Shown here one piece after another: positions 1-1,682 of a stretch of 64,000 nt of DNA. This DNA comes from Blautia sp. Marseille-P3201T (GTDB lineage Bacteria > Bacillota > Clostridia > Lachnospirales > Lachnospiraceae). Each line of letters starts with the position of its first letter. Positions within the stretch are counted from its first letter, which is position 1. Below the pieces are notes generated by a model. It worked only from the letters and a program-made list of their open reading frames with translations, was not told where the DNA came from and did not search any database. Both the position numbers and the translations under genes were made by a program. Location of the stretch: the NCBI RefSeq assembly GCF_900120295.1, contig NZ_LT635470.1:992001-1056000 (forward strand), read 5' to 3'.

Positions 1-1415
1 AATTAAAAGAGCTGGGTAAAATTTACGGATTTGATATTTCCCGCCCTGCTGCCAACGTCCAGGAAGCTATCCAGTGGTTATATCTGGGCTATCTTGCTGC
101 TATTAAAGAGCAGAACGGTGCTGCTATGTCACTTGGACGTACTTCTACCTTCCTTGACATTTATGCAGAACGTGACTTAAAGAACAATACCTTCACAGAA
201 GAACAAATTCAGGAATTTATCGACCATTTTATCATGAAGCTGCGTCTTGTGAAATTTGCAAGAACCCCTGAATACAATGCGCTGTTTTCCGGTGACCCTA
301 CTTGGGTAACAGAGTCCATCGCCGGTATGGGAATTGACGGACGCCACCTTGTGACAAAGATGTCCTTCCGTTACCTTCATACACTGGAAAATCTGGGTAC
401 TTCTCCGGAGCCAAACTTAACGGTTTTATGGTCTACAAAGCTGCCTGTAAACTTTAAGCGCTTCTGCGCCAAAACTTCTATCGCATCCTCTTCCATTCAG
501 TACGAGAATGACGATTTAATGCGTGTAACTCACGGCGATGACTATGCCATTGCTTGCTGCGTATCTTCTATGCGCATCGGAAAAGAAATGCAGTTCTTCG
601 GCGCTCGTGCAAACCTTGCAAAATGTTTGTTATACGCAATCAACGGCGGTGTTGACGAAGTATCCAAAAAACAGGTGGGTCCAAAATTCCGTCCTATTAC
701 TTCCGAATATTTAGATTACGATGAGGTTATGGGCAGATTTCAGGATATGATGAAATGGCTTGCCGGTGTCTATGTAAATACTTTAAATGTCATTCACTAT
801 ATGCACGACAAATATTCTTACGAAAGATTGCAGATGGCGCTTCATGATAAAAAAGTCACACGCTGGTTTGCAACAGGTATTGCAGGGCTTTCTGTTGTTG
901 CCGACTCTCTGTCCGCAATTAAATATGCCAAAGTTAAAGCCATTCGTGATGAAAACGGCATTGCCGTAGATTATGAAATCGAAGGAGATTTTCCAAAATA
1001 CGGAAATGATGATGACCGAGTTGACGATATTGCTTATGATATTGTTCACACCTTTATGGAATATATTAAAGGAAATCATACCTACCGTGGAGGAATTCCT
1101 ACAACTTCTATCCTTACCATTACTTCTAACGTAGTGTATGGAAAAGCAACAGGTTCTACACCGGATGGAAGAAAAGCAGGACAGGCATTTGCTCCGGGCG
1201 CTAACCCAATGCACCACAGAGACAGCCACGGCGCTGTTGCATCCTTAAATTCTGTTTCCAAGCTTCCGTTTAAGGACGCACAGGACGGTATTTCCAATAC
1301 CTTTTCCATTATTCCGGGCGCTCTGGGAAAAGATGATGCAGTTTTCTTTAATGATATTGCTTTTGAATTAGAACCGGACTGCGCTTGCTGCGAACCAAAC
1401 ATTGACTTACAATAA
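1..1415 (+). CDS. pflB: Pyruvate formate-lyase core subunit without glycyl-radical domain (5' partial)
   Basis: Catalytic core of pyruvate formate-lyase, which cleaves pyruvate plus CoA to acetyl-CoA and formate. The frame is open from the window edge (codons starting at base 3), so the true start lies upstream. The thiyl-radical cysteine pair is visible as ACCVSSM, with the two Cys codons at 555-560. The chain ends at ALGKDD followed by about 20 residues including a DCACC cluster, and then a TAA. In ordinary PFL the polypeptide continues into NLV-LLDGY and the RVSGYA radical loop; here that part is the next gene, 24 nt downstream with its own ribosome binding site. Family assignment is near certain. 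That the two products assemble into one enzyme is inferred from the exact domain-boundary break and from the fact that nothing recognisable is missing. Confidence 0.95.
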
Positions 1416-1425
1416 TACTTTTTAC

Positions 1426-1433
1426 AGGAGGAA
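1426..1433 (+). promoter_or_regulatory. Strong ribosome binding site for the separate glycyl-radical subunit
   Basis: AGGAGGAA lies 6 nt before the ATG at 1440 and 10 nt after the TAA of the PFL core gene. It is a canonical Shine-Dalgarno sequence, which argues that the downstream 80-residue frame is a real gene translated by its own initiation rather than the tail of a frameshifted gene. Confidence 0.85.
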
Positions 1434-1439
1434 TTTTCA

Positions 1440-1682
1440 ATGAATATCAGTAATGCTCAAATCGATAACTTAGTAAATTTATTAGACGGATATGCAGAAA
1501 AAGGCGGACATCACTTAAATGTCAACGTATTTACAAAGGAAACCCTTTTAGATGCACAGAAACATCCTGAAAAATATCCGCAGCTTACTGTTCGTGTGTC
1601 CGGATATGCAGTAAACTTCCACAAGCTGACAAAAGAACAGCAGGATGAGGTTATCTCAAGAACCTTCCATGACGGAATGTAA
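1440..1682 (+). CDS. Stand-alone glycyl-radical domain of pyruvate formate-lyase
   Basis: An 80-residue protein matching only the C-terminal radical domain of PFL. It contains NLVNLLDGY, then [15 protein letters not shown] and the radical motif RVSGYA, with the presumed radical Gly at residue 55 (codon 1602-1604), and ends in the usual [12 protein letters not shown] tail. E. coli GrcA (YfiD) is a precedent for an autonomous radical domain, but GrcA is a spare part for an otherwise complete PFL. Here the neighbouring core lacks this domain, so this protein is probably an obligatory subunit. Its 3' end overlaps the preferred pflA start by 14 nt, which suggests coupled translation with the activase that must install the radical. 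Confidence 0.93.

Follow-up and report, generated by a model that had tools for sequence, protein, structure and literature searches.

In many fermenters, pyruvate formate-lyase (PFL) is one of the main routes by which pyruvate yields acetyl-CoA and formate, and its sensitivity to oxygen is the textbook difficulty with glycyl radical enzymes. The 64,000-nucleotide stretch of the Blautia sp. Marseille-P3201T genome considered here (contig NZ_LT635470.1, positions 992,001 to 1,056,000; hereafter ‘the window’) opens within a PFL locus in which the enzyme is divided over two genes, one for a core that lacks the glycyl radical domain and one for that domain, followed by the gene for the activase (Table 1). 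The core gene, the 5' part of which lies upstream of the window, encodes 691 residues in all (L004:1459-3534); its open frame within the window spans 3-1415, closes with a TAA at 1413-1415, and carries the protein 27 residues past ALGK in a cysteine-containing tail, whereas ordinary fused PFLs have no tail of this kind. The core matches TIGR01255 with 1114 bits (cut-off 994), over model positions 2-670 of 744 only, and the Pfam PFL-like family with 745 bits. The 80-residue product of the second gene carries the radical glycine as Gly55 (nucleotides 1602-1604), and matches NCBIfam NF038360, ‘autonomous glycyl radical cofactor GrcA3’, with 171.6 bits (cut-off 158). The two open frames lie in the same reading frame, with one TAA and 24 nucleotides between them, and pflA probably starts at the ATG at 1669. 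A core with an adjacent cysteine pair and an RVSGYA loop are thus both present, on separate proteins, a stop and a new start standing where an ordinary PFL continues as one polypeptide. The original prediction had described this arrangement (a core ending in ALGKDD and a short cysteine-containing tail, and an 80-residue radical gene with its own Shine-Dalgarno site), and its coordinates and reading are borne out.

Table 1. Features of the split PFL locus in window coordinates, and examples of the accessory gene of other lineages in locus coordinates
Feature	Position	Strand	Basis or remark
PFL core (PflB without glycyl radical domain), 3' part	1..1415	+	TIGR01255 and Pfam PFL-like matches
Codons of catalytic Cys pair (ACCVS motif; core residues 406-407)	555..560	+	motif search
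Core C-terminal tail, 27 residues, DCACCEPN at 1377-1400	1332..1412	+	
Shine-Dalgarno site AGGAGGAA of radical-subunit gene	1426..1433	+	6 nt spacing to ATG 1440
Stand-alone glycyl radical subunit, 80 aa, RVSGYA loop	1440..1682	+	GrcA3 match, PFL alignment
PFL activase pflA (radical SAM)	1669..2418	+	overlaps radical gene by 14 nt; profile search began at 1666
Accessory gene, example	L048:1919-2185	-	
Accessory gene, example	L052:1816-2082	-	
Accessory gene, example	L068:2361-2558	+	57 more loci

The break falls at a domain boundary, as had been proposed. The core aligns to residues 10-686 of E. coli PFL and residues 9-79 of the small protein to 683-758, so that no PFL segment is missing, and a model of a relative in which core and radical part are read through as one chain matches 736 residues of 1mzo_A at 1.4 Å. 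The genome (2.94 Mb, 99.7% complete) contains a single PFL-like match, which is this locus; a profile search for a second full-length pflB, suggested in the original prediction, found none there. The only other Gly_radical match, below the cut-off, is NrdD, the class III ribonucleotide reductase.

The arrangement is widespread and recurs in numerous gut bacteria. Relatives, including the best 80 of 557 in a broad scan, yielded 216 loci with a radical domain, from which 154 split and 19 fused cores were used; the 154 rows are what remains of 189 split loci once 26 duplicates and nine omitted loci are removed, the latter having cores that start after residue 300 (L097, L105, L116, L125, L195, L201) or that are broken (L126, L224, L239). 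Ninety-two of the 154 come from the genome, genus or family of the window or carry the label Lachnospiraceae. All 154 split cores retain the ACCVS motif. The start of the radical gene could be resolved in 151 loci and is ATG every time; 132 of these starts, and 8 of 2957 ATGs inside the core, are preceded by a Shine-Dalgarno match of 6-7 nucleotides, a contrast somewhat favoured by the picking of starts according to the best Shine-Dalgarno site among in-frame candidates. Across 66 pairs drawn from 12 rows of the genus, the median ratio of non-synonymous to synonymous divergence (dN/dS) comes to 0.023 in the core and 0.10 in its tail, and to 0.016 in the radical subunit; dS (1.3-1.7) is near saturation in these comparisons. 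By the evidence of sequence, the split is real, natural and conserved, it occurs with no full-length PFL found alongside it in the window's genome, and it is accompanied by a cysteine-bearing element in one of two alternative forms. The PFL of the window is very probably an obligate two-chain enzyme whose split state is paired with such an element.

The second form of the element is a third gene. A gap of more than 200 nucleotides separates core and radical gene in 62 of the 154 loci, and in 60 of these it encodes a small accessory protein (47-89 residues as called, mostly 60-90). A Shine-Dalgarno site of at least 5 nucleotides stands ahead of the chosen start in 42 of the 60 cases, and every one of the proteins is recovered at E<=1e-3 by a profile of the others from which near copies had been removed. 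Profile comparison shows the N-terminal half of the accessory protein (IDDIVxMLDxxMxxGxGHxNV) to be homologous to the corresponding half of the radical subunit (hhalign probability 95.7%, E 8.8e-9, 34 columns), and the same helix and strand are predicted for it with moderate confidence. The glycine and radical loop are absent, and the protein ends in a Cys/ACxxPT motif: AC.[IVT]P is found in the second half of 57 of the 60, two of the remaining three (L046 and L054) ending after the first Cys pair, and most carry two or three cysteines. The C-terminal half has a predicted local distance difference test score (pLDDT) under 50 in the model. No Pfam match with E below 0.19 was obtained for five accessory proteins searched, and NCBIfam returned for the same five GrcA3 only, far below its cut-off; the accessory profile found nothing convincing among PDB sequences (best E 0.024, ‘Syn-F4-Link’), and PHROGs gave weak matches for one of three proteins only (E 0.027 and 0.032, of unknown function). 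An accessory-like fold does not appear in the Foldseek or VIA lists (50 matches listed, from a fold library ending 2026-04-08), which says little because the core fills them. An attenuator in the long gaps was also considered and rejected, intrinsic terminators being no more frequent there (2 of 62) than in shuffled sequences (2.1).

With few exceptions, a locus has either the gene or the tail. Core tails with at least two cysteines, often in the accessory protein's own motif, occur in 90 of the 154 loci, which break down into 1 of the 62 with a gap above 200 nucleotides and 89 of the other 92; the overall tally is 90 loci with the tail, 62 with the gene, two with neither, and none seen with both. 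The short cysteine-containing tail of the window is, in other words, replaced by a separate small gene in other lineages. Loci that depart from the usual layout include L129 (G486), where the small gene lies after the radical gene, L065 (G130), where a related gene is found on another contig (80 residues, E 1.1e-8, profile positions 8-62), and L147, which has the tail and no accessory gene in its gap. The accessory profile matches 42 of the 94 tails from loci without a gap gene at E<=0.01, and none of the 60 tails beside a gap gene (mean 0.0 in ten shuffles). When 22 tail-type genomes, that of the window among them, were searched in full, no full-length accessory was found, the matches being confined to the N-terminal half of the radical subunit and, in some genomes, the core tail itself; a full-length accessory match was likewise absent from ten genomes with a fused PFL. 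Among the omitted loci, the genomes of L097 and L105 hold the accessory gene and L201 has a cysteine tail. The switch between the two forms is repeated, with 13 changes of gap class and 15 of tail cysteines on a fast tree; independent pairs go opposite ways in a mean of 5.9 of 7 cases (sign test, median p 0.03, range 0.03-0.06).

Several other readings of these observations must be considered. That the window's pieces share one frame with a lone TAA between them is what would be seen had a single stop broken a normal pflB, whether by sequencing error or in a decaying pseudogene. This explanation is hardly credible for 154 non-redundant loci in which the radical gene, supplied with its own Shine-Dalgarno site, occupies all three frames relative to the core (57, 55 and 39 of 151) at distances of 0 to 1038 nucleotides, both pieces are under strong purifying selection, additional tail and head sequence has accrued at the break, and no other PFL was found in the genome; the conservation of the split leads us to reject it, in agreement with the original prediction that no frameshift is involved. 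The shared frame of the window, found in 57 of 151 loci, is also what programmed read-through of the stop codon would require in order to produce a full-length PFL next to a truncated core. The 94 loci in frames 1 and 2, the order core, activase, radical gene in L065, and the conserved Shine-Dalgarno site and ATG reduce its likelihood to almost nothing, and read-through of a single TAA was rejected on these grounds. A more substantial alternative is that the small protein is a spare part of the E. coli GrcA/YfiD type, which repairs an intact PFL encoded elsewhere. The name given by NCBIfam points in that direction, as do the three split genomes that also have a full-length PFL and the orphan radical copies that have no core close by. 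A stand-alone radical domain is indeed present, but in 51 of 54 split genomes no TIGR01255 protein except the split core was found (E up to 1e-100), where 44 of the 54 reach 90% completeness with no more than 5% contamination and assembly gaps could hide full-length copies. The radical piece therefore does not behave as a spare part for an intact enzyme; it adjoins a core that lacks the domain altogether, and it is itself a complete domain without the 60-residue N-terminal extension that the relevant part of PMC8683613 describes for YfiD. The spare-part explanation was rejected as very unlikely. The orphan radical genes (L023:1588-1827, L030:1519-1743, L034:1525-1755 and L117:1501-1731) have no core within 1-1.5 kb on either side, and some of the genomes that bear them (G042, G144 and G064) also hold a core-linked copy; these orphans may possibly be true spare parts.

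A further alternative concerns the third gene, which might be a decaying duplicate of the radical domain whose cysteine motif has no function in common with the tail. Homology of its N-terminal half to the radical domain and loss of the loop would both follow, and so would its weaker conservation (median dN/dS 0.43, as against 0.06 for the radical subunit, over 122 pairs). Among the eight accessory pairs with dS below 0.9, however, five lie at 0.08-0.14 (two of them with a near-identical shared partner) and three at 0.49-0.59, and decay would not be expected to preserve AC.[IVT]P in 57 of 60 proteins, to alternate repeatedly with the cysteines of the core tail, or to leave the gene in place after the radical gene (G486) or on another contig (G130). 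We regard decay as improbable, though less so than the preceding explanations.

Several observations nevertheless weigh against an obligate two-chain enzyme paired with a cysteine element. Full-length PFLs are present beside the split core in G085, G119 and G132. Neither tail cysteines nor an accessory gene are found at L107 (G333) and L134 (G525), nor at L125 (identical to L195; G489, 82% complete), which has a cut core and stands outside the 154; the element is not strictly needed, because these three lack it. Absence of the accessory gene was established genome-wide in the 22 tail-type genomes and elsewhere from the gap only, and the window's own tail gives no statistical match to the accessory profile (E 6.5), sharing ACCEPN with it and nothing else. 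Since core and radical frame coincide in the window, some read-through of its one TAA is possible there. Docking, activation and exchange are proposals made from sequence, and docking of the radical part in the AF2 model is partly built in, because its alignment included fused PFLs (a first AF2 model, from 12 rows, was poor at pLDDT 62 and was not used).

The history of the split was followed in a tree of 60 cores, built under a simple model with a bootstrap that had not fully settled and with groups named after a first tree had been seen. Fused and split states require three changes on this tree, which, with fused as the outer state, fit one split and two re-fusions. The first of the latter is L036:324-2621, a 766-residue fused PFL lying within the split clade, with a linker that resembles a cysteine-containing tail joined to the head of a radical frame; the second is a clade to which G581 and G582, of the window's genus, belong. 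Placing all fused rows in one clade was rejected by the approximately unbiased (AU) test (p 0.002, or 0.0014 without L036), and a separate second split for L134, whose core ends at LGKDD without a tail, gives an AU p of 0.44. Three members of the genus with large genomes (G577, G581 and G582, loci L154-L156) have a fused PFL with its core nested among split cores, and these fused members offer a natural comparison for oxygen tolerance.

Compared with E. coli PflB (TIGR01255; PDB 1h16, 1mzo and 2pfl), the split enzyme is alike in core sequence, cysteine pair, radical loop and adjacent PflA, and the relative's read-through model has the same overall fold; PflB is one chain, whereas the split PFL consists of two, broken at about E. 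coli residues 677-683 and with a tail added to the core. GrcA/YfiD and T4 Y06I (PDB 6OWR) resemble the small subunit as stand-alone glycyl radical domains that act on a core in trans, but they repair a full-length PFL that has been cleaved, whereas the split core never has the domain. YfiD, as described in PMC8683613, has a disordered N-terminus of 60 residues, and what is left of PFL's own domain has to vacate its place. The name GrcA3 implies a cofactor or spare part, whereas the comparative data indicate an obligate subunit. The best PDB matches to the core are 38lb and 38la, entries of 739 and 687 residues named ‘Formate acetyltransferase’, which were not among the 50 fold-library matches listed. 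The first is very likely a natural split core, because it extends past ALGK, has no radical-domain match and is, in the part compared, 83% identical to the Olsenella uli split core; 38la ends at LGKED and could be either a natural split or a cut construct. No PDB chain of either entry matches the radical subunit or the accessory protein. As these two recent entries look like cores without a radical domain, it appears that at least one group works on split-type enzymes. The accessory subunits of benzylsuccinate synthase (BSS) and 4-hydroxyphenylacetate decarboxylase (HPAD) are comparable as small cysteine-bearing partners of a glycyl radical enzyme, and the part of PMC12590467 that concerns BSS-beta reports it as a regulator of thiyl radical formation. 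Those subunits bind [4Fe-4S] clusters, with folds like those of high-potential iron-sulfur proteins in BSS; the PFL element mostly has two or three cysteines, and the PFL accessory is set apart from both by an N-terminal half that imitates the radical domain.

In the two-chain enzyme that we envisage, the core would supply the barrel and cysteine pair and the 80-residue protein the radical glycine. PflA, encoded alongside, would activate Gly55 of the small subunit, which would dock in the place taken by the C-terminal domain in a normal PFL and there generate the thiyl radical on the cysteine pair of the core. A partial precedent for activation in trans exists, inasmuch as E. coli PFL truncated before residue 696 can, in the experiments given in PMC8683613, be activated with YfiD, at a level 32-fold below that of cleaved PFL; PFL residues 696-733 and the YfiD N-terminus matter in recognition, according to the same source. 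With the radical on a dissociable subunit, cleavage by oxygen should cost only a cheap, replaceable part of 80 residues. The cysteine element, delivered as the C-terminal tail of the core in the window and as a separate small protein elsewhere, accompanies the split and not the fusion, and so would handle some consequence of a radical part supplied in trans, whether the empty site, the exposed cysteine pair or the hand-over; its likeliest role would be to occupy or guard the empty radical-subunit site or to help hand over the subunit. A bolder proposal, which we offer tentatively and consider possible rather than probable, is that many gut Clostridia have a PFL of several subunits, in which the radical subunit can be hot-swapped and a dedicated placeholder shields the cysteine pair or quenches stray radicals. 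Either a degenerate radical-domain copy or a cysteine tail that has taken over its C-terminal motif would serve as the placeholder in the empty radical site, from which a freshly activated radical subunit would displace it.

The radical piece already has a name in NCBIfam; the third gene, for which there is no annotation, and the either/or pattern are new here. A search of the open-licence literature in PubMed Central (as distinct from subscription papers and preprints) found no paper on the split PFL, the third gene or the pattern. A PFL with a permanently separate radical part is in effect nature's own form of the YfiD repair experiment, and allows a direct test of whether radical subunits acting in trans are replaced once oxygen has damaged them. 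PMC12590467 (2025) describes most glycyl radical enzymes, among them PFL, as homodimers of a single polypeptide, with the remark that more accessory subunits may await identification, and the third gene is a candidate for one. At present the label of a ‘spare-part cofactor’ and an accessory gene without a name hide a multi-subunit enzyme in annotation.

Within the genus, 15 of 20 genomes (the window's included) have the split form, three a fused PFL and two no match, and in the family a query running from core to radical domain finds matches in 128 of 150 genomes. Of 61 family loci (the 60 top-ranked ones and that of the window), 54 are split and seven fused, which is not a frequency, because weaker and mostly fused matches were left aside. 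Core-linked split loci also occur in three further families of the same order. Ten genomes from other parts of the class have them as well, the core of one (G537) being broken. Outside Clostridia, a split PFL is present in the Actinomycetota isolates Olsenella uli An820 and Enorma burkinafasonensis, and in assemblies of Spirochaetales and Erysipelotrichaceae, which may be mis-binned; the occurrence in Actinomycetota isolates and Spirochaetales assemblies (L214, L225, L187, L188, L193) suggests horizontal transfer, or mis-binning in the case of the assemblies. The broken cores omitted from the 154 rows are interrupted by an early stop or frame change, at the same site in L126 and L239. Relatives of the 80-residue subunit are also found in 1539 of 50,697 phage records, the two closest being unannotated faecal records; most of these phage relatives are presumably T4-like relatives of GrcA.
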